Assembly (NCBI GenBank): GCA_011773985.1
Contig: WVWN01000003.1
Span: 1-59,688, forward strand
Length of the DNA stretch: 59,688 nucleotides
Direction of reading: 5' to 3'
Source: Candidatus Zixiibacteriota bacterium
GTDB lineage: Bacteria; RBG-13-66-14; B26-G2; WVWN01
Part shown: one piece after another, positions 4,208 to 59,675 of the stretch
How positions within the stretch are numbered: the first letter of the stretch is position 1
Layout: the number at the start of each line of letters is the position of its first letter
Made by a program: the position numbers and the translations under genes
Notes under the pieces: model-generated
Database searches by the model: none
What the model was told of the DNA's origin: nothing
The model's input: only the letters and a program-made list of their open reading frames with translations

Positions 4208-5788
4208 CTACGGGTGCCACGGCGCGGGCGTTTGGAATTTATATATGGCCACCTCGCCCGGGTAGAAAAAATCCTCCCAATAACCGCTACCGTCGTGTTG
4301 CGGAATCTCCATAGCGCCCTCGCCGACTTTATAAACGGTACTGTACCTCGCGCCTTTGCCCCAGTGATCCCAGTAATTGTGTGCGCTGAAGAAAGGCCTG
4401 AAGCGGACTTTATACTCTTCGGCCGCGCCCTCGTGCGGCCGGCACGCGACTATCAAGTAGGTCCACTCGTAAAACTTTTTTGCGACGCCCTCCATAATGA
4501 TCCGGTCGGAGAGGAAGTGCGTCTTGGGTACCAATTTACCGCATACGAAAGTCGACTCTTCTACGACTTCGCTGGGCTCCGGTAGCGGCCAAGTGGTAAC
4601 CGCTGCGACCGTATAATCGTAGTCGCCCTTTATGGCGCCGTTAATTTCGTAACCGGATAACTCGTTTATTAAATCCCTTAAGTAAGCCGGTATGTTAGTG
4701 TCGCGGTAGAAGAAATCGTACTCTGAAGGCGTATGGTAGTCGACGTCGTCGTACCAAACCAAGCCCTTGGCGCCGTGGATGATAGCGTCGTAGGCCTGAA
4801 AGAACATTTGGTTGCGGGTGAGGTATTCCTCGCCTTGGTCCTTCCCTTGTAGTACCGCTATGTAGGGTTTGCACCGGGGGCCGCCTTCCGGCGGTACTAT
4901 TATCCACTCGGAACGGGCCGCTTCGTGAACAGCGTCGGCGACGCTCCCGGTAACGGAGGAGTAATAATTAGGAAGGAGGCAGCCTAACAAGGGCGCACAT
5001 TGTTCGTTTGCCAATCTTAGCATTTCGGGTTCGGGATACGGGAGTACCACGGCCCCTACGATGTCGGCGGCGCTGTGGTAATCTTTCCATAGGTCGCGCA
5101 CCTTGACGGGGTCGCCCTGGGCCATAAATATATTATGTGCCGCTCCCCTTTGCTCTTCTAAAGTTTCCAATTGGTCCGACGCAAAATTTATGTAAGTCGG
5201 CGTCGGCCGCGGTTCCGGGAGGCGGTTGCGGCTGTCGTAGTAGCGCCAGGCCGGTCGGTCCCAATGGTAATAACCCATGAAGGCTTCCGCGTGGTAGGAA
5301 TATTCCACCCATTGAACCATCTGGTTGAAAAGCTGTACCCTTTGGTCGGGCCAAACGATGTTGCCGTCGTCGTTCCACGTGCCGTATTGACTCCAGAAAA
5401 GCGCCGGGTCGGCGAGTATCTTTACGCCCGCCGCATCCGCGGCGATGAGGTGGGCGGCGCAATAGCCTTCGCTTTGGAATATTGCGCCGGGGCGGTTAGG
5501 CCAGCGTTCCGGGTCCCACGGCGCGACTACCAGGTTACCCCCCATGTTACCAAATGCCGCGTAGTCGGCCTGTAGCGTAGTAGAATCGTAGCCCATAGGG
5601 ATAGCCGGGTAGAAGAAGGTGCCGAGGGGAAAGAAGCGCTCGTACGGCCCTTCGCCCTCGGCGAGCGTTATGAAACCCTCGCCGTCCACGCCTACTTTTA
5701 AGTAGTTGAAAGGGGGCGGTTCCTGGCCGTAGGAGACGGCCGCGGAAAATAAAACAAAGCATGCCGCGGCTACTTTTGTACGAGGCAT
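4208..5788 (-). CDS. Secreted TIM-barrel, glycoside-hydrolase-like protein
   Basis: The 526-residue product begins with a signal peptide (MPRTKVAAACFVLFSAAVSYGQ). The mature start FFPLGTFFYPAIP, then GNMGGNLVVAPWDPERWP, is the pattern of extracellular (beta/alpha)8 glycosidases, where an opening strand is followed by a 'what happened to the traveller' barrel. Later segments (FMGYYHWDRPAW, AIIHGAKGLVWYDDVDY) resemble barrel strands with aromatic and acidic substrate-site residues. I cannot assign catalytic acids or a GH family. It ends YKFQTPAPWHP and lacks the LGRVKALFR-type tail found on neighbouring secreted proteins. Short 3' remnants of paralogues of this gene (ending YKFQKPPRFGES) occur twice upstream, at 6575 and 7362, so the gene family was once duplicated here. 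Confidence 0.6.
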   Translation of the reverse strand: MPRTKVAAACFVLFSAAVSYGQEPPPFNYLKVGVDGEGFITLAEGEGPYERFFPLGTFFYPAIPMGYDSTTLQADYAAFGNMGGNLVVAPWDPERWPNRPGAIFQSEGYCAAHLIAADAAGVKILADPALFWSQYGTWNDDGNIVWPDQRVQLFNQMVQWVEYSYHAEAFMGYYHWDRPAWRYYDSRNRLPEPRPTPTYINFASDQLETLEEQRGAAHNIFMAQGDPVKVRDLWKDYHSAADIVGAVVLPYPEPEMLRLANEQCAPLLGCLLPNYYSSVTGSVADAVHEAARSEWIIVPPEGGPRCKPYIAVLQGKDQGEEYLTRNQMFFQAYDAIIHGAKGLVWYDDVDYHTPSEYDFFYRDTNIPAYLRDLINELSGYEINGAIKGDYDYTVAAVTTWPLPEPSEVVEESTFVCGKLVPKTHFLSDRIIMEGVAKKFYEWTYLIVACRPHEGAAEEYKVRFRPFFSAHNYWDHWGKGARYSTVYKVGEGAMEIPQHDGSGYWEDFFYPGEVAIYKFQTPAPWHP

Positions 5789-5830
5789 AATTGAACCTCC
5801 CGCCGTTGGAATTCTATTTAAGTAATTACC

Positions 5831-6547
5831 TTATCGGTACAACCCTTTAATCTTCCCGAACGAGCCGGGGTTCGTGCCGACGACGTCAATATCGACCTGG
5901 TAGACCCAATTGTTAGTATCGTTAATGAGCCAAAGGTACTGGCCGTCAAAAGTCGTGCCGGCGGCCTCGCCGCCGTCCGGGACGGGGAAGCTCGCGACGA
6001 CGGACCCGGTAGTGGTTACGTTGTACATACGGTTGCCGGGGCCGCCGACCCACAGCTTGTGGCCGTACCAGCCGAGGTCCGTCGCGAGCCTAAAAGGCGC
6101 CTTGAAGCTCCCGACGAAAGAGCCCGCGGTAGTGAACTTAGCGGGTCCGCACCATAAGTATGGGCTTTCCCACGTAACGCCGGGACCGAAAGAACCGGTG
6201 CCGAACCAATTAACCAACGAACCGGTAGTGGTTAATTGGTAATAATATATAGACTGCGTTGGGTGGGCGTCCGAATTCCATAAATATGCGCCGTCGAAGG
6301 TTAAACCCTTGATAAAGGTATAGGTGCCGCCTATATTGAAAGAACTTACTATTGAACCGGTAGTATTTGTGCGCAAGAAAACGGAACTTGGTTGTCCGGC
6401 GAACCACAGGTACGCGCCGTCCCAACAAAGCCCTGCGGTACCCGTACCACGCGGATGCGGGAACGAAGACACGACGTCGCCGAACGCGGCGTAAGCTACG
6501 CCGGCCGGTAACGACAAAATAACGGCAATTTTTAGTGTTTTAACCAT
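5831..6547 (-). CDS. Secreted beta-propeller-like protein with conserved C-terminal tail (copy 1)
   Basis: This 238-residue protein has a signal peptide (MVKTLKIAVILSLPAGVAYA) and is built from repeating ~45-residue strands with the pattern TTTGSxVxSFxxP...xxGLxxDGxYLW, as in six-bladed propellers. It ends NPGSFGKIKGLYR, a variant of the 13-residue tail shared by many secreted proteins in this window. The gene at 6618-7334 is a close paralogue over the full length, differing mostly in the middle blades. The start is supported by AAGGGGGATAAGAT just before ATG. Function unknown; secretion is inferred from the signal peptide and surface display or processing from the shared tail only. Confidence 0.75.
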   Translation of the reverse strand: MVKTLKIAVILSLPAGVAYAAFGDVVSSFPHPRGTGTAGLCWDGAYLWFAGQPSSVFLRTNTTGSIVSSFNIGGTYTFIKGLTFDGAYLWNSDAHPTQSIYYYQLTTTGSLVNWFGTGSFGPGVTWESPYLWCGPAKFTTAGSFVGSFKAPFRLATDLGWYGHKLWVGGPGNRMYNVTTTGSVVASFPVPDGGEAAGTTFDGQYLWLINDTNNWVYQVDIDVVGTNPGSFGKIKGLYR

Positions 6548-9409: not shown

Positions 9410-9506
9410 GGACAACGGCGGGAGGGGGGAGGTAGGGCGACGTACCGGGGCGACCTCCGGGCCGCCCCTTAACGCTTAACGCCGCGTCGGGAAACGCGAG
9501 GGCGCC

Positions 9507-9529
9507 GCGGCGGGTAGGAAACCCGCCGC
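9507..9529 (+). terminator. Strong hairpin after the secreted protein gene
   Basis: GCGGCGGGT-AGGAA-ACCCGCCGC is a perfect 9-base-pair stem 98 bases after the stop of the gene at 8801-9409. No T-run follows directly, so termination is likely but not certain. Confidence 0.45.
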
Positions 9530-9545
9530 TACTTGGGCGTTAAGA

Positions 9546-9576
9546 TAAAAACCCCCCGCTCAAGGCGAGGGGTTTT
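9546..9576 (-). terminator. Intrinsic terminator of fbp
   Basis: On the minus strand AAAACCCCTCGCC-TTGA-GGCG-type pairing with GCGGGGGGTTTTT gives a hairpin with T-run 23 bases past the fbp stop. The A-run on the other side makes it potentially bidirectional. Confidence 0.7.
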
Positions 9577-9598
9577 CCGCGTCCCGTTCTTAGGACAC

Positions 9599-10699
9599 TT
9601 AGATATCTTCCCAGCGGCCCTCGAGCTTCTCCTGGACCGCGGGCATCGTCGTATACTCCATCTCGGCGAAGGGGAGGCGGTGCGGTTCGAAGGGGCCGTG
9701 CTTGCGGAGGTAGCCGGCGACGAGGTTGGCGGTGCGGCGGGCCTCGTCGTACGAGGGGTCGTCGAACATGTCGCGGGGCCCGATAAGTTTACCGTCGGCT
9801 AGTTGGTATCCCATGCAAACGACGCGCGGCGGCCCGTCGAAGCGGGACGGGTGCGCCTCCTTGACCGAGACCGGCATCAGCGGGCCCATGTGCGAGCCGC
9901 GCATCCAGCCCGAGGTCGTGTGCGGGAACGCGAACGGCTCGAGCGCCTCGCCCACCGCGGGCAGCCCCGACTGACAGCGGACGACGCAAACCGGGTCGTC
10001 CTTGCCGACGTAGCGCCCGGCGATGAGCGCGAGCTTCTGCGTCGACGACGACGCGGCGATGTCGCCGTCGTCCTTGCGGTAGACGGCGCGTATGAGGAAG
10101 TGGTCCGGCGAGCCGACGAAGACGAGCATGTCGTAGAGCTCCTCCGGGCAAGAGAAGACGATGTGCTTGCTCTTGTGGATGTCGTAGACGTCGAAACGGA
10201 AGCCGTCGTGCATGTTGGGGTCGATGACGAGGCCGGCGGTGTTGAACGGGTCCGCGAACATCTTGTAGAGCGGCAGGTTCCAGGCGCCGGGGGCGCACTT
10301 GTCGCCCGCGAAGACGAGGACCGGCTCGCTCTTACGCTCCTCGAACTCCATCTCCGCGACGCCCGGGCCCATGCCCTTTACGTTCCCCGAGAACGCGTCC
10401 GCCAACAGGTCCTGGCCCGCGCCGTAGAGGTGGAGCCCTTTCGCGACCTCGGTGCCGGCCACGAAGGTATCCCAGGCCAACTTATGGATCTTCTCGGCGT
10501 CGGTCCCCTGGGTGTGGGTCATTACGAGCTCGAGGTCGTCGCCGCAGGTGAAGACGTCGAAGTCGACGAGGAGGCCGCCCTTCTGGGCCTTTTCGAGTTC
10601 CTCGCGGCCTTTGGCGATGACGTCCGGGTGGCTCGCGGAGTGACCCACGAGGCCGCCGATGTCGGCCTTGATGACGCTCAGGGTGATTTTACCGGCCAT
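9599..10699 (-). CDS. fbp: Bifunctional fructose-1,6-bisphosphate aldolase/phosphatase (class V FBPase)
   Basis: The 366-residue enzyme condenses triose phosphates and dephosphorylates the product to fructose 6-phosphate, giving one-way gluconeogenesis; it is typical of archaea and deep-branching, often thermophilic, bacteria. Recognisable features include the N-terminal SVIKADIGGLVGHSA (Asp13, His20), TCGDDLELVMTH (Asp54-Asp55), GAGQDLLAD (Gln96), FAGDKCAPGAWN (Asp133-Lys134), and the AVYRKDDGD stretch near residue 207 with the Tyr and Lys expected for acid/base and Schiff-base chemistry. Length matches the family. The start is supported by GGAGGCACC shortly before ATG, with an AT-rich promoter region behind it. 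A 3' fragment of a second copy lies at 7642-7740. Confidence 0.92.
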   Translation of the reverse strand: MAGKITLSVIKADIGGLVGHSASHPDVIAKGREELEKAQKGGLLVDFDVFTCGDDLELVMTHTQGTDAEKIHKLAWDTFVAGTEVAKGLHLYGAGQDLLADAFSGNVKGMGPGVAEMEFEERKSEPVLVFAGDKCAPGAWNLPLYKMFADPFNTAGLVIDPNMHDGFRFDVYDIHKSKHIVFSCPEELYDMLVFVGSPDHFLIRAVYRKDDGDIAASSSTQKLALIAGRYVGKDDPVCVVRCQSGLPAVGEALEPFAFPHTTSGWMRGSHMGPLMPVSVKEAHPSRFDGPPRVVCMGYQLADGKLIGPRDMFDDPSYDEARRTANLVAGYLRKHGPFEPHRLPFAEMEYTTMPAVQEKLEGRWEDI

Positions 10700-53564: not shown

Positions 53565-53924
53565 TCAACTCCCCGCGGCGAGGACGTACGCCTCGAGCGG
53601 TTCGTCCCGGCCTATGTGCGAGGCGACGACCTCGCGCGCCCGCGCCGGCGTCATATCCGCGTATATGACCTCTTCCTTCGCGGGGGACGTTACGTAGACC
53701 AGCGGCTCGCGCTCGCACAGGCCGCGGCAGCCGGTCTGCGTTACGATGACGTCCGTGATGCCGCGCTCGTCGAGCTCGTCGATGAGCGCCGCGAGGACCT
53801 CCCGCGCGCCGGCGGCGATGCCGCACGTCCCCATCCCCACGACGACCGTATAGCGCGCGGCGCCCTCGGCCAACTCCTCGGCGGGCATCTTCTCCACCAT
53901 TTTACGCAGGTCTTCGAGCTTCAT
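53565..53924 (-). CDS. Thioredoxin-like [2Fe-2S] ferredoxin domain protein
   Basis: A 119-residue protein of the NuoE/HndA C-terminal type: VVVGMGTCGIAAGAREVLAAL and VIVTQTGCRGLCEREPLVYV supply three of the four cluster cysteines; the fourth position reads Ala, as seen in many stand-alone members. It probably passes electrons or signals in the adjacent [FeFe] hydrogenase-like operon, of which it is the last gene. Confidence 0.85.
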   Translation of the reverse strand: MKLEDLRKMVEKMPAEELAEGAARYTVVVGMGTCGIAAGAREVLAALIDELDERGITDVIVTQTGCRGLCEREPLVYVTSPAKEEVIYADMTPARAREVVASHIGRDEPLEAYVLAAGS

Positions 53925-53956
53925 CTCGTTCCCTCCGCCTCGAGGGCCGGGCGCAT

Positions 53957-54511
53957 CTAAGCCCCGCCGGCGGCCGCGACCCTTTCTTCGTTGTCGGCAA
54001 CGTACTTGCGGAGCGCCTTGGCTATTTGCGGCGTCGCCAGCGTGCGGCGGCGGAGTTTATCCTTTAGCTCTACCGTGCTTAGCTCGAACAGCGCGCCGTC
54101 CCGTTCGTGGCGATACTCGAAGTCGACGCGCGGGTTCGTAACGATGAGGGTCCATATCGTCGCGGCGACGTCGCCCAGCGGCGGCCGGTCGATGCTGTCG
54201 AGTCGGTAGCGCGCCTCAACGGTAGTGCCCTCGCCCGGCGCCGACGTGACGGTGAGGCCGCCGCCCGCCTGCTCCGCCGTCTGTTCCAAGAGCGGTATCC
54301 CCAGGCCCACGCGGCGCGTGGCGCGCGTCGTGAAGAACGGGTCGTGGACGCGCGATAGTGTCTCGGCCGTCATACCCGAGCCGTCGTCGCGGATAATGAA
54401 TACGAAGGTGTTCTCCCGGGCCTTCTCGTCGATTTCGATCCTCACCTTCGTCGCGCCGGCGCGGATCGAGTTTTGGGTTATGTCTAGGATATGCAGGGAG
54501 ATGTCTTCCAC
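53957..54511 (-). CDS. GHKL ATPase (histidine-kinase-type ATP-binding) protein
   Basis: A 184-residue protein beginning with the N-box MEDISLHILDITQNSIRAGA, then the G1 box IRDDGSGM and GLGIPLLEQTAEQAGGGLTVTS. There is no phospho-accepting histidine domain, so it is an anti-sigma-like or partner kinase. The same short ATPase commonly accompanies sensory [FeFe] hydrogenases of this layout. It lies between the PHP phosphoesterase and the ferredoxin genes. Confidence 0.85.
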   Translation of the reverse strand: MEDISLHILDITQNSIRAGATKVRIEIDEKARENTFVFIIRDDGSGMTAETLSRVHDPFFTTRATRRVGLGIPLLEQTAEQAGGGLTVTSAPGEGTTVEARYRLDSIDRPPLGDVAATIWTLIVTNPRVDFEYRHERDGALFELSTVELKDKLRRRTLATPQIAKALRKYVADNEERVAAAGGA

Positions 54512-54525
54512 GGCGGAGTGTCTCG

Positions 54526-55257
54526 TTAGCCGTAGCCGGCGACGTGCCGGCCGTCCTTTGCGGCGAGCGCCATTTTGAGTTCTTCGAAGGTCGGCGCCGC
54601 GAGCTCGAAGACCGTGAAGGCCGCGCCGACGTCGTTAGGGCGATGCGCGTCCGACGCGCGGATGACGGCGTACCCGCAATCGGCGTAGTCCTCGGCCTTG
54701 CCGTACGGCGAGAGCTCGACGGCGTCGAAGACGCCGGGCGGTATGAAGCCGAGCTGGCTTGTGCAGCTGAAGGCGGGCCGGTCGACGTGGCTCGCGACGG
54801 CGAGGCCGCCGTAGCGGTGTACGTAATCTACGGTCGTGCCGACGTCCATGTCGGTGGCGCCGAGGAGCAGTCGTTCGTTCATGCCGAGGACGTTCTCGTG
54901 CTCGTCGACGATCACCTGGTAGCCGAAGCGCCGCGGGTCGTTCTCGCCTTCCTGCAGCCGCTGGTACACCTTGCCTTGCATCTCGCCCGCGTCGGCCAGC
55001 GTCGCGAAGAGCGCGAGGACGTGGACCTCCTCCGCGGTCGTGACTTCCATACCGGGTATGACGGTGATGCCGGCCCTTTCCCCGAGGCGTACGGCGGGGC
55101 GGGCGTTTTCGGAGGCGTTGTGGTCGGCGATGCCGACGAGGGTGAGGCCGCGCCTTCGGGCGGCTTGGACGATTCGCCGCGGCGATTGGCTCAGGTCGCC
55201 GCAGGGTGAAAGGACTGTGTGGATATGAAGGTCGGCGCGGAAGGTTCGCAGCGTCAG
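54526..55257 (-). CDS. PHP-domain phosphoesterase, CTG start
   Basis: The coding frame upstream of the first ATG (55050) is clearly the same protein: TLRTFRADLHIHTVLSPCGD is the PHP motif I (His11, His13), followed by GLTLVGIADHN, GITVIPGMEVTT, LAVASHVDRPAF and VIRASDAHRPND, all metal-binding PHP motifs. No ATG, GTG or TTG exists between an in-frame TAG and this sequence; the best start is CTG 55257, with AGGGGG eight bases upstream and overlapping the TGA of the previous gene. The protein would be 243 residues. Likely a phosphatase or nuclease in the hydrogenase-associated signalling operon. Confidence 0.8.
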   Translation of the reverse strand: MTLRTFRADLHIHTVLSPCGDLSQSPRRIVQAARRRGLTLVGIADHNASENARPAVRLGERAGITVIPGMEVTTAEEVHVLALFATLADAGEMQGKVYQRLQEGENDPRRFGYQVIVDEHENVLGMNERLLLGATDMDVGTTVDYVHRYGGLAVASHVDRPAFSCTSQLGFIPPGVFDAVELSPYGKAEDYADCGYAVIRASDAHRPNDVGAAFTVFELAAPTFEELKMALAAKDGRHVAGYG

Positions 55258-55601
55258 CGTTCTTTCCCCCTAAGCCCCATCTTATAAAGTCGTCCCACGA
55301 GTTCGAAGCTGTTTTCTTCGGAGAGCAGAACGGTTACCCCTTCCTCCTCGGCCTTGGCGATGGTTTCGGCCGCGGGCTTCTTGCCGCTCGTGATTACCAC
55401 GCCCGCGAGGTCGTTCAACGAGCAGACGGCGACGACGTTGATGTGGGTCTGGATGGTAACCCAAAGGGCGCCCTCGCCCGCGTTGGCCATGACGTCGGAG
55501 AGCAGGTCCGAGACGTAACCGCCTTTGACGTCGCCGTCGACGCCTCCCGCGGCGGAGGCCACTTCGAGCCCGAGCTTGTCGATTATCTTCTTTAGTTCCA
55601 T
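55254..55601 (-). CDS. DRTGG-domain protein
   Basis: A 115-residue protein starting MELKKIIDKLGLEVASAAGG (ATG 55601; the open frame extends to 55709 inside the preceding gene). GGYVSDLLSDVMANAGEGALWVT and LAGVVITSGKKPAAETIAKAEEEGVTVLLSE match the DRTGG domain found in HPr kinase and beside CBS and Fe-S signalling proteins. It is a regular neighbour of group D-like hydrogenase proteins. Confidence 0.85.
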   Translation of the reverse strand: MELKKIIDKLGLEVASAAGGVDGDVKGGYVSDLLSDVMANAGEGALWVTIQTHINVVAVCSLNDLAGVVITSGKKPAAETIAKAEEEGVTVLLSEENSFELVGRLYKMGLRGKER

Positions 55602-55609
55602 CGTTGACC

Positions 55610-56980
55610 TTACTTCCTTGGGTTTTTGAGCGTGGGCGGCAGCTGCTCGGAGAGCGACCCCATCTCCCTGGCAAGTTCCTGGAGCCGCTCCCGCAACTTG
55701 AAGGTGCAATCCGTCATCTGCGATTTACCGAGTACGACGTCCTCCGCGAAGGCCCGGCAGGTCGGCGCGCCGCAGGAGCCGCAATCGATGCGGGGCAGCG
55801 AGGCGACGATGGATTCCAGTTTGTTCATCAGGGATATCGTTTCGGATATGTCGGTTCCCAGTTGAAGCGTCGGCCTCGGCCTCAGCGGCGTCTTAAGGTC
55901 GAACGCCCCCCCTTCTATAAGTTCCGTTATCTCTCCGTACGTGAGGTCGGGCGGCCGCCCCTCCTCGATGCCGAACTTTTCGCTGCGGGCCGCGCGCAGT
56001 TCGTCGATGCGGTTTTTCGCGACGAACGGGTCCTCGACCGTCAGCGGCCCGCCGACGCAGCCGCCCGTGCACGCCCGAAGCTCCAGATAATCGTAGCCGT
56101 GGTGGTATTCGTCGCTCTCGACCAGCTCTAATACGCGAACGACGTTGGCGATGCCGTCCACGGCGAGGCGGCGGCCCTTGCCGATCAACGTGTTCTCTCC
56201 CCCCGCGGCTCCCCACCCGAGCGAGAGCCCCGACGCCCGGGCGATGCCCGGCACGACCTCTATTCTCTCGAGGTTACTCATTATCCGGTTGAAGACGTCG
56301 GAGATCGCGATGGCGCCGTCCACGTGCGTATTGCCCGCGGCTTCGGGCTGCTTGACCGCGGTGGCCTTGGCCGAGCAAGGCGTTATGAAGAAGACGCCTA
56401 TCTCCTCCGGCGGTATGCCGAGGTGGCGGCTCCGGCTCTCTTTGACCACGCGGGCCGCGGCGTCCATCGGTGCCTCGACGGGGATTATGTGGGCGAGCAG
56501 CGACGGGAAGCGCACCAGGATTAGGCGGACGATGGCCGGGCAAAGCGAGGAGATGACGGGTTTGGGGTGCCTCTCGTCCTTCAGGTAGTTCCGCGTCGCG
56601 AGGGTCACGATTTCGCCGCCTAGCGCCGCTTCGTAAACCTCGTCGAACCCCAGGTAAATAAATCCGGAGAGGACCTTGTCGAGGGGGATGGAAGTCTTGA
56701 ATTGGCCCGCGGCCGCGGACGACGGCAAGGCCACCGAGTATTTGAAACGCTTTATGGCCTCGAGCGGGTCCGTCTGGGCGTACTTCGCGTGCGTGGGGCA
56801 TATGCTGATGCAGACGCCGCAGTCGATGCAGCGGACCGGGTTGATCTCGGCCTTGCCGCCCCGGACCCTTATGGCCTCCGTCGGGCACTCGCGGACGCAG
56901 TGCGTGCAGGCAATGCACCTCTCCTCCGCCAGCCTGACGGAGTGGTAGTATTCGCCTATCTTTGTGTCTTCGTCGTTCAT
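55610..56980 (-). CDS. Sensory [FeFe] hydrogenase-like protein (group D-like)
   Basis: A 456-residue protein. Residues 22-32 and 51-61 form two [4Fe-4S] ferredoxin motifs (CIACTHCVREC and CIDCGVCISIC). The central part is a [FeFe]-hydrogenase large domain with the H-cluster cysteines in altered surroundings: SSLCPAIVRL (Cys147), ITPCSAKATAV (Cys202) and RACTGGCVGGPL. The C-terminus has another four-cysteine Fe-S module (CGSCGAPTCRAFAEDVV). The absence of TSCCPxW and of the GGG ending of L3 separates it from catalytic enzymes and fits group D/sensory proteins. It leads an operon with DRTGG, PHP, GHKL ATPase and ferredoxin genes, a signalling unit that may sense H2 or redox state. Confidence 0.85.
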   Translation of the reverse strand: MNDEDTKIGEYYHSVRLAEERCIACTHCVRECPTEAIRVRGGKAEINPVRCIDCGVCISICPTHAKYAQTDPLEAIKRFKYSVALPSSAAAGQFKTSIPLDKVLSGFIYLGFDEVYEAALGGEIVTLATRNYLKDERHPKPVISSLCPAIVRLILVRFPSLLAHIIPVEAPMDAAARVVKESRSRHLGIPPEEIGVFFITPCSAKATAVKQPEAAGNTHVDGAIAISDVFNRIMSNLERIEVVPGIARASGLSLGWGAAGGENTLIGKGRRLAVDGIANVVRVLELVESDEYHHGYDYLELRACTGGCVGGPLTVEDPFVAKNRIDELRAARSEKFGIEEGRPPDLTYGEITELIEGGAFDLKTPLRPRPTLQLGTDISETISLMNKLESIVASLPRIDCGSCGAPTCRAFAEDVVLGKSQMTDCTFKLRERLQELAREMGSLSEQLPPTLKNPRK

Positions 56981-57162: not shown

Positions 57163-58629
57163 TTAGCAGTTCCGCTTGACGGTGCGACGGAGGGTGCCGT
57201 CGGCGTCGTATATCTCGAGCTCGAGGGGCATCTTGCCGGGGAGGGCGTGCGTCGCGCAGGCCATGCACGGGTCGTACGCGCGGAACGCCATCTCCACCAT
57301 GTTGAGCTTGCCCTCGTCGACGTCGCCGCCCTTGATGACGCCCTTGGCGGCGTTGCGGACGGCGAGGTTGATGCCGGCGTAGTTGTGCGTCGTCGCGACG
57401 ATGAGGTTGACCGCGGTGACGATGCCGTTCTCGTCGGTGTCGTAGTCGTGGATGAGGTGGCCGCGCGCGGCCTCGATGGTCCCGACGCCCCGCGACGGCT
57501 TCTCGGTCGGAATGTTGCGCACGTGCTCGTCGAGGATTTCGTCTTCCTGCATGTACTGGAGCCACAGCTCGGCGCCCTGACACCCCTCAATGATGCGCGC
57601 CCAGTGGTACGCCAGCGACGCGTGCACCGGCTTGCCGCCCAGCGTCTCGTACATCTTCTCGAACTCGGCCTGCGCGAGCGGCGTCTGCATCCCCTCGGAG
57701 GCGTTGAGCCGCCCGAGCGGGCCGCCGCGGTAGATGCCGGACTCCTTGCCCGTAACCCAACCCTGCCAGCCGACGTTCTTCAGGTACGTCACCTTGAGGT
57801 AGGTCCACGGCTCGACGCGCTCCGCGAGGTGCTCGAGGTAGTCGAGGCCTTTGTACTTGGCGAACTCGTCGCCGTCGGGGTCGACGATGCGCGTCCAGCC
57901 GTCGTAGAAGTCGACCTTGTTGGCGTCGTTGACCAGGCCGATGTAATACGTCTGCTGGCCGCCGTATATTTCGGAGAGGACGAGGTCGACGTACTCTTTA
58001 TTTTTTAGGACGACGTCCTCGAATATCTGAAAGGTAAATTTGGAGAACTCGACCGCCTCCTCGGCGTGTTTGCGCATCTCGTCGCGCGTCTCGGCGTCCA
58101 GCGGCCGGCTGATGCCGCCGGGGAGGGCGATGATGGGGTGGGTGCGCTTGCCGCCGAAGTACTTGAGTACGTCGATGGACTTGGCGCGCATTTCGATGAC
58201 CTTGGCGCCGACCTCGAGGCCCACCTTGCCGACGACGCCGAGGATGTTGCGTTCGGCCGGGCTCGCGGTAGGCCCGACGACGAAGTCCGGCGCCGCGAGG
58301 TAGTAGAAGTGCAACAGGTGGTCGTAGAAGTAGTACGAGTTGTATATCATCCGCCGGAGTCTCTCGCCGTTGGGCGGCAGCTCGACCTTGTAGACCGCGT
58401 CACATGCCTTCGCGCCTGCGAAGTGGTGGACGAGCGGTCAAACGCCGCAGATGCGCGGCGTAATCCGCGGGAGCTCCTCCACCGGCCGGCCCACGCAGAA
58501 CTGCTCGAAGCCGCGCAGCTCCGGAATCTGCAGGTACGCCTCGGCGACGTCGCCGCCGTCGTCCAGGAAGATGGCGATCTTGCCGTGCCCTTCGAGGCGA
58601 GAGATGGGGTCGATCTCGATTTTCTTCAT
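57163..58629 (-). CDS. mvhA: [NiFe] hydrogenase large subunit (MvhA-type) with in-frame UGA, probable selenoprotein
   Basis: Read through one TGA (58438-58440), the frame gives a single 488-residue MvhA-type large subunit: [20 protein letters not shown], the L1 motif [17 protein letters not shown], then [42 protein letters not shown] and the L2 motif [15 protein letters not shown]. The TGA stands exactly at the second cysteine of RxCGxC, a bridging ligand of the Ni-Fe site, and there is no frame change on either side. Fourteen bases after the TGA the mRNA can form CTTCGC-AGGC-GCGAAG, a SECIS-like hairpin with G in the loop. I therefore annotate one gene with selenocysteine 64. A simple nonsense mutation or sequencing error is the alternative. 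MvhG is directly upstream. Confidence 0.85.
58401..58440 (-). promoter_or_regulatory. UGA codon with bacterial SECIS-like hairpin
   Basis: TGA at 58440-58438, then 14 bases, then a 6-base-pair stem CTTCGC/GCGAAG (58423-58408) with loop AGGC; an outer CAC/GTG pair extends it. The loop lies 20 bases after the UGA and has G as second base, within what is known for bacterial SECIS elements (16-37 bases). Confidence 0.65.
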
Positions 58630-58694: not shown

Positions 58695-59675
58695 CTATTC
58701 GTCGCCGTCTTTGCGCTCGCCGCGCTGGACGCCGAGCATCGACCTCGCGAGGCCGAAGCGGTAGAAGTAGCCGGCGGGGTCGTCGAGTTTGTCCAAAATT
58801 TTATCGGCCTCCGCTTGCGTGTCCGCGATGACGATGGAGGCGATGGCGGAGGCGAGCTTCGCGCCCATGTCGTTCACGTTGTCGGTGGGGCCGAAGCAGC
58901 CGCGGCAGGCCTGCCCCGCTACGACGCAAGCTGCCTCGCAGCCGTCCCGCGTTGCCGGCCCGCAACACATTATGCCCTGCTCAAGGAGACACTTCTCCGG
59001 GTCGTTCTCGACGAGGTGGATGCGTTTAAATTCGGTAACCTGCTTCTCCTCCGACCGCTCGCGCGGGCACTCGTCGCACACGGCCTTCGTTCCGGCGATG
59101 ACGGTCCCTTTGGGCGGCAGCTCCCCCTTCGCCACCGCCTCCACCGCGGCTACGATCCACTTCACCTGCGGCGGACACCCCGGGAGGTAGTAATCGACGT
59201 CGACGACCTGGTCGAGGGCGTACGCACGGTCCATCGCGCGCGGCAGCGTCAGCTCGCCCTCCGGCGCGTCGTATTTGAGTTGCGGCCGAGTCCCGTCCGG
59301 GTTAACGACCGAGGGGACGGTGTCGTACATCCGGTGCGCGAGTTCCTCCGTCGTCCAGAAGTTGCCCAGCGAGGGGATGCCGCCCATCTGGGCGCAGGCG
59401 CCGAAGGACACCAAGACTTGGCTCTTCCGCCGCATCTGCTTGGCGTGGTGGACGTCGTGGTCGTTGCGGACGGCGCCGTTGAAGAAGCCCACGGTGATGC
59501 CGCCGTCCGGGATGGCCTCCAGGTCCTTATCCTTGAAGTCGAGCGCCGTAGGCCAATAGACGATGTCGGCCAGCTCCGCGACTTTGAGAATTACCTCGTC
59601 GATGTCGACGACGGCTATCTCGCAACCGCCGCAGCTCGCGGAGGGCATGAACGCGAACTTGAATTTCTCAGGCAT
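58695..59675 (-). CDS. mvhG: [NiFe] hydrogenase small subunit (MvhG-type)
   Basis: A 326-residue protein with AAGGAGGAAGTCC before [20 protein letters not shown] holds the proximal-cluster Cxx[18 protein letters not shown] and [14 protein letters not shown] the other proximal cysteines, and [32 protein letters not shown] and [15 protein letters not shown] the medial and distal cluster ligands. This is the F420-non-reducing hydrogenase (group 3c) pattern. It has no twin-arginine signal, so the enzyme is cytosolic. An mvhD-type gene and electron-bifurcating partners would be expected just outside the right edge. Confidence 0.92.

Follow-up and report, generated by a model that had tools for sequence, protein, structure and literature searches.

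The reverse-strand gene at 57163–58629 of the window (the whole stretch of DNA analysed, 59,688 nucleotides) is best read as encoding a new type of naturally occurring [NiFeSe] hydrogenase in which one bridging ligand is predicted to be a selenolate. UGA at codon 64 is very probably (about 0.88) decoded as selenocysteine (Sec) through SelA, SelB, SelC and SelD and a downstream hairpin, giving a full-length group 3 large subunit with a bridging selenolate and three cysteine ligands. The enzyme family and the decoding system are known; the ligand position and the hosts are new.

Large-subunit gene and operon

The mvhA-type frame runs from ATG at 58629 to TAA at 57163, and its sole internal stop is the TGA at 58438–58440, placed by a preliminary description of this DNA exactly at the second cysteine of the L1 motif RICGxC, and located there (RICGV-U-P). 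With UGA64 read as Sec the product is an mvhA-type [NiFe] hydrogenase large subunit of 488 residues. Genomes are numbered G000 (source of the window) to G003 for the genus and G004 for the other member of the order, all of them uncultured Coatesbacteria; G141 and G211 belong to other phyla. Features of the window are as follows.

58695–59675, reverse strand: mvhG-type hydrogenase small subunit, directly upstream of mvhA (PF01058, E 1.3e-23)
57163–58629, reverse strand: mvhA-type [NiFe] hydrogenase large subunit (frame, PDB and Pfam matches, AlphaFold2 fold)
58447–58449, reverse strand: Cys61, first (terminal) L1 ligand, kept as TGC (sequence)
58438–58440, reverse strand: in-frame TGA, codon 64, predicted Sec at the Ni–Fe bridging position of L1 (same codon in G000–G004, G141 and G211; aligned with Cys83)
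58405–58455, reverse strand: codons 59–75, synonymous variation reduced in Sec forms only
58408–58423, reverse strand: SECIS-like apical hairpin, CUUCGC [AGGC] GCGAAG, starting 14 nt after UGA, loop at +20
58393–58440, reverse strand: extended predicted fold, UGA over the hairpin, −22.5 kcal/mol
57256–57273, reverse strand: L2 motif DPCMAC, Cys455 and Cys458, ordinary cysteines

Assigned to the group 3 [NiFe] large subunits by L1 RxCGxC (U for the second C), L2 DPCxxC, N-terminal DPxxRxEGH and pairing with the small subunit, just beyond which the contig ends. L2 reads directly as a normal DPCMAC, as had been claimed, and is DPCMAC in every Sec form found; the classical [NiFeSe] arrangement, with Sec as the first cysteine of L2 (UxxC, terminal Ni ligand), is not present. 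The product matches PF00374 (E 6.6e-35). Nearest solved chains in a PDB sequence search are HydABCSL 7t2r and MvhA 5odc (E 2.5e-106), with Vhu-type 9sw2 and HoxH 5xf9 also matching. An AlphaFold2 model built from the window sequence and its relatives (mean pLDDT 72, pTM 0.79, low confidence at the active-site loops) compares with 5xf9, 7t2r and 5odc at TM 0.81; HoxH, HydABCSL and MvhA, the nearest solved relatives by both sequence and fold, differ in having cysteine at the codon-64 position. In the alignment with Hydrogenophilus thermoluteolus HoxH (5xf9), Cys83 stands opposite U64 and Cys80 opposite C61; in HoxH, Cys83 bonds both Fe and Ni, Cys465 is the other bridge and Cys462 is terminal (PMC12093298). 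By this alignment U64 is the predicted bridging ligand.

The operon of the relatives has the order HdrC-like, HdrB-like, HdrA-like, NuoE-like, NuoF plus GltD-like, HydC-like, MvhD, MvhG, MvhA. The earlier assignment as Mvh-type holds for a group 3 large subunit; the operon is a combined Hdr/HydABC-like/MvhDGA rather than a methanogen-type Mvh operon. Its NuoE/F-like, HydC-like, MvhD and Hdr-like subunits are shared with group 3 bifurcating and NAD-linked hydrogenases, and gene content suggests a hydrogenase that bifurcates or confurcates electrons, with links to NAD(P)H and ferredoxin. In four relatives (L163; L164, about 5729–6160, forward strand; L165; L166) the mvhD lying between mvhG and the HydC-like gene carries an in-frame TGA, in the context VGG-U-HPGDCHY, with cysteine at that place in G141; it is the predicted second selenoprotein of the same operon. 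Sec-containing MvhD/FrhD/VhuD are a known bacterial selenoprotein family, but their Sec is no ligand of the [NiFe] centre. In the window, mvhD would lie past the end of the contig. Downstream of mvhA, 53565–56980 holds ORFs for an Fe_hyd_lg_C/4Fe-4S protein, DRTGG-like, PHP-like and HATPase-like products and a 2Fe-2S protein (Pfam applied to two of them only), which we take to resemble the sensor-type cluster often adjoining bifurcating hydrogenases. In G001 the last 43 mvhA codons recur, in decayed form, shortly behind the intact gene (L164, about 9500–9656); a VhuU-like subunit was considered for this 51-residue match and rejected, the copy lacking the L2 cysteine pair.

Selenocysteine machinery and candidate insertion signal

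A check for selA, selB, selC and selD had been proposed, and the genome of the window contains tRNA-Sec, full-length SelA, SelB and SelD. In this genome and its relatives selD likewise has a TGA in frame, at its canonical UxxK site, and is an internal control for Sec decoding. The selD of the window's genome (G000:C43:73084-73961, L151) matches in two frames or pieces, as if frameshifted in assembly; that of the relatives is whole apart from the Sec TGA. tRNA-Sec is detected in G000–G003 and adjoins selB in G141. Not found in G211 (83% complete; SelB present). Not found in G004, where 150 of about 369 candidates were scored, the surroundings of the sel genes were empty, and the genus tRNA-Sec used as a DNA query gave no match; an odd ARAGORN match next to selA of G004 proved not to be a tRNA-Sec.

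A SECIS-like hairpin of 6-bp stem and AGGC loop, described earlier at 14 bases downstream of the TGA, is located at 58408–58423. It has the form expected of a bacterial insertion signal, which follows closely on UGA and has a small apical loop containing G (PMC1088965). The 48-nt fold starting at UGA has z = −2.8, one of 200 shuffles being as good; the folds of G141 and G211 are no better than those of shuffled sequences. Stability of the hairpin alone is weak evidence. Synonymously variable sites number 2 of 16 in codons 59–75 versus 177 of 327 gene-wide (P 5e-4); this is the lowest 17-codon window of mvhA, and Cys relatives have no such dip. The same hairpin, with an AGGU loop, is present in G004 mvhA. 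AGG-loop hairpins with a 6-bp stem at +19 to +22 are common to mvhA, mvhD and selD of the genus, with different stems: AUUACC [AGGAA] GGUAAU after the mvhD TGA of four relatives, and CGGCCG [AGGCGC] UGGCCG or close variants after the selD TGA. With such hairpins defined post hoc by a stem of at least 6 and an AGG loop between +19 and +22, 0.12% of all positions in the window have one, and 2 of 755 TGA trinucleotides are followed by one. In G141 and G211 the loop is CGGGUA at +22, with one compensatory C-G to U-A pair between the two genomes. A stem of at least 6 with a GG[TC] loop is found in 7/7 Sec genes versus 0/80 Cys genes; random synonymous recoding yields such a hairpin in 28–32% of draws for the Coatesbacteria proteins and 5–10% for G211/G141. 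The comparative evidence, not a single hairpin, carries the case.

Codon 64 in homologues and alternative readings

TGA stands at codon 64 in all five genomes of the order (G000–G004), once per protein, the mvhA products being 90–92% identical among the four genus members and 76% in G004. TGC or TGT occupies the codon in the more distant relatives within the phylum and in every parsed Cys homologue (66 of 67 parsable named homologues; the exception, L063, is G004 itself), and randomly placed stops, which had been named as grounds for rejection, are not observed. An in-frame UGA conserved opposite cysteine of homologues is the pattern of a bacterial selenoprotein. That faulty sequencing or assembly made TGA out of TGC or TGT might be suspected of a single metagenome-assembled genome, but it has a negligible probability here: the identical codon occurs in two other phyla as well as in several independently assembled genomes, one of them a single-contig chromosome (G004, CP070755.1, Candidatus Coatesbacteria bacterium bin3). 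Across the lineage, error is already refuted, and the repeated TGA stands in for the read-coverage check that had been advised for 58438–58440. A true stop, leaving either a truncated, decaying gene or a 63-residue peptide followed by a 395-residue protein restarted from ATG 58350, is what mechanical ORF calling yields, piece for piece. It is highly improbable, because the same TGA, with no other stop, is kept between proteins 76–92% identical. Low dN/dS is found before the TGA, in codons 65–93 (from the TGA to the restart ATG) and beyond, invariant residues lie on both sides across homologues, in keeping with the earlier remark that both flanks are in frame and conserved, and the restart is further unlikely because its ATG is CTA in G004.

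Were UGA64 translated as a standard residue such as cysteine, through a suppressor of the tRNA-Cys(UCA) type or near-cognate readthrough, the active site would be an ordinary Cys4 site. Such a reading would suit the cysteine that every homologue other than the two Sec groups has at codon 64, as well as the negative tRNA-Sec search in G004, which covered scored candidates and the neighbourhood of the sel genes. It is nevertheless improbable, for in the window UGA serves as an ordinary stop, as the preliminary description had observed, and ends about 10 of 38 long ORFs; complete Sec machinery and the canonical UGA gene selD occur in the same genomes; and simple suppression needs neither the synonymous constraint peculiar to Sec forms nor their shared hairpin. 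In the selected loci that were scanned, the only UCA-anticodon tRNA is tRNA-Sec. Decoding as Sec is preferred: the observation made in the preliminary description is confirmed, and its Sec interpretation is supported.

Second lineage, relation to known hydrogenases and predicted function

The L1-TGA form is not confined to the lineage of the window. The pattern ICG[VI]-TGA-x-x-x-H, searched in 386 genomes, matched G000–G004 and three more. Two of these, in other phyla, are full-length homologues with RICGV-TGA-PGAHH and a normal L2. The third, G201, is a chance match, its frame being full of stops.

G141, contig C36 (L176, L178): L1-TGA hydrogenase outside the phylum of the window (pattern match)
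G211, contig C211 (L175, L177): L1-TGA hydrogenase outside the phylum of the window (pattern match)

The phylum of G141 is represented by only two genomes. A tree of 45 proteins, computed with Sec masked, places G141 and G211 among Cys enzymes from Dehalococcoidia and Bacillota (75% identical). The Sec groups are separate; two changes are forced, and a single Sec clade is rejected (p-AU 0.0018). Since the groups lie apart, Sec at L1 either has two origins or was transferred a single time and then lost on several occasions; the tree does not discriminate gain from loss. It is likely that natural bridging-selenolate [NiFe] hydrogenases exist as a new selenium-hydrogenase class and arose at least two times from Cys enzymes, in Coatesbacteria as well as in another lineage that covers two further families.

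Like the [NiFeSe] hydrogenases (HysA of Desulfovibrio/Desulfomicrobium, FruA/VhuU of methanogens, FrhA/VhuU of Asgard archaea), the protein belongs to the same superfamily and has one of four cysteine ligands replaced by UGA-encoded Sec. In those enzymes Sec lies in L2, as had been noted earlier, and takes the place of its first cysteine (UxxC, terminal on Ni; PMC13188914, PMC11212049), whereas here it is the second L1 cysteine (CxxU, bridging) and L2 is all cysteine. A 2026 selenoproteome review gives hydrogenase alpha subunits as UxxC only and Sec hydrogenases as exclusive to sulfate reducers and methanogens (PMC13188914); surveys of Asgard archaea place Sec hydrogenases in the FrhA/VhuU families. 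For FrhA Sec proteins of Syntrophobacter and Desulfotalea the accessible part of the source does not state the position of Sec (PMC1794560); the family is UxxC in reviews of 2022 and 2026. No natural L1 Sec hydrogenase was found in literature covering a minority of the subscription papers, and no paper on selenocysteine in Coatesbacteria was found in the literature search. The claim of a new active-site variant would stand for natural enzymes, for which reviews list Sec only in L2, but not for Sec at the bridging site as such, already engineered in Escherichia coli. In Hyd-2, Evans and co-workers placed Sec at all four ligands, including the second L1 cysteine, Cys64 of HybC, with activity at a reduced level (PMC11212049); in Hyd-1 it was placed at all four ligand positions according to citing papers (e.g. 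PMC9961374). Those variants share the bridging second L1 ligand with the present protein, but are engineered through allo-tRNA and belong to group 1, being neither natural nor SelB/SECIS-directed nor of group 3.

UGA64 would be translated as Sec by the bacterial SelABCD system, with the hairpin just past it directing insertion. The second L1 ligand would then be a selenolate, not a thiolate, bridging Ni and Fe, with cysteine at the three remaining ligands; Sec insertion, binding to both metals and a benefit are what we infer. The most likely benefit would be that oxidation of the bridging ligand becomes readily reversible. In the inactive Ni-A state a bridging cysteine is proposed to carry oxygenated sulfur (PMC7324405), and in the group 3 enzyme of Cupriavidus the bridging cysteines are reported to be sulfoxygenated reversibly (PMC12596923). 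A selenolate at the bridge should be more easily re-reduced and would alter Ni–Fe electronics, shifting those of Ni and the catalytic bias in an NAD(P)H/ferredoxin-linked complex of the Hdr-Hyd-MvhDGA type. In E. coli Hyd-1 and Hyd-2, H2 oxidation fell whichever of the four ligands was replaced by Sec (PMC9961374, PMC11212049), so a natural enzyme must have a protein environment adapted to it.

Standard annotation would split the L1-TGA genes of G141 and G211 in two, and gene callers have probably been dividing L1-Sec hydrogenases in this way. Selenium in natural hydrogenases has so far been placed at one terminal Ni ligand only, the position singled out in laboratory work. If natural selection has fixed Sec at a second position, a bridge between both metals, in two lineages, then evolution has used another site, and natural enzymes become available for testing the role of each ligand in oxygen recovery, bias and hydride chemistry.
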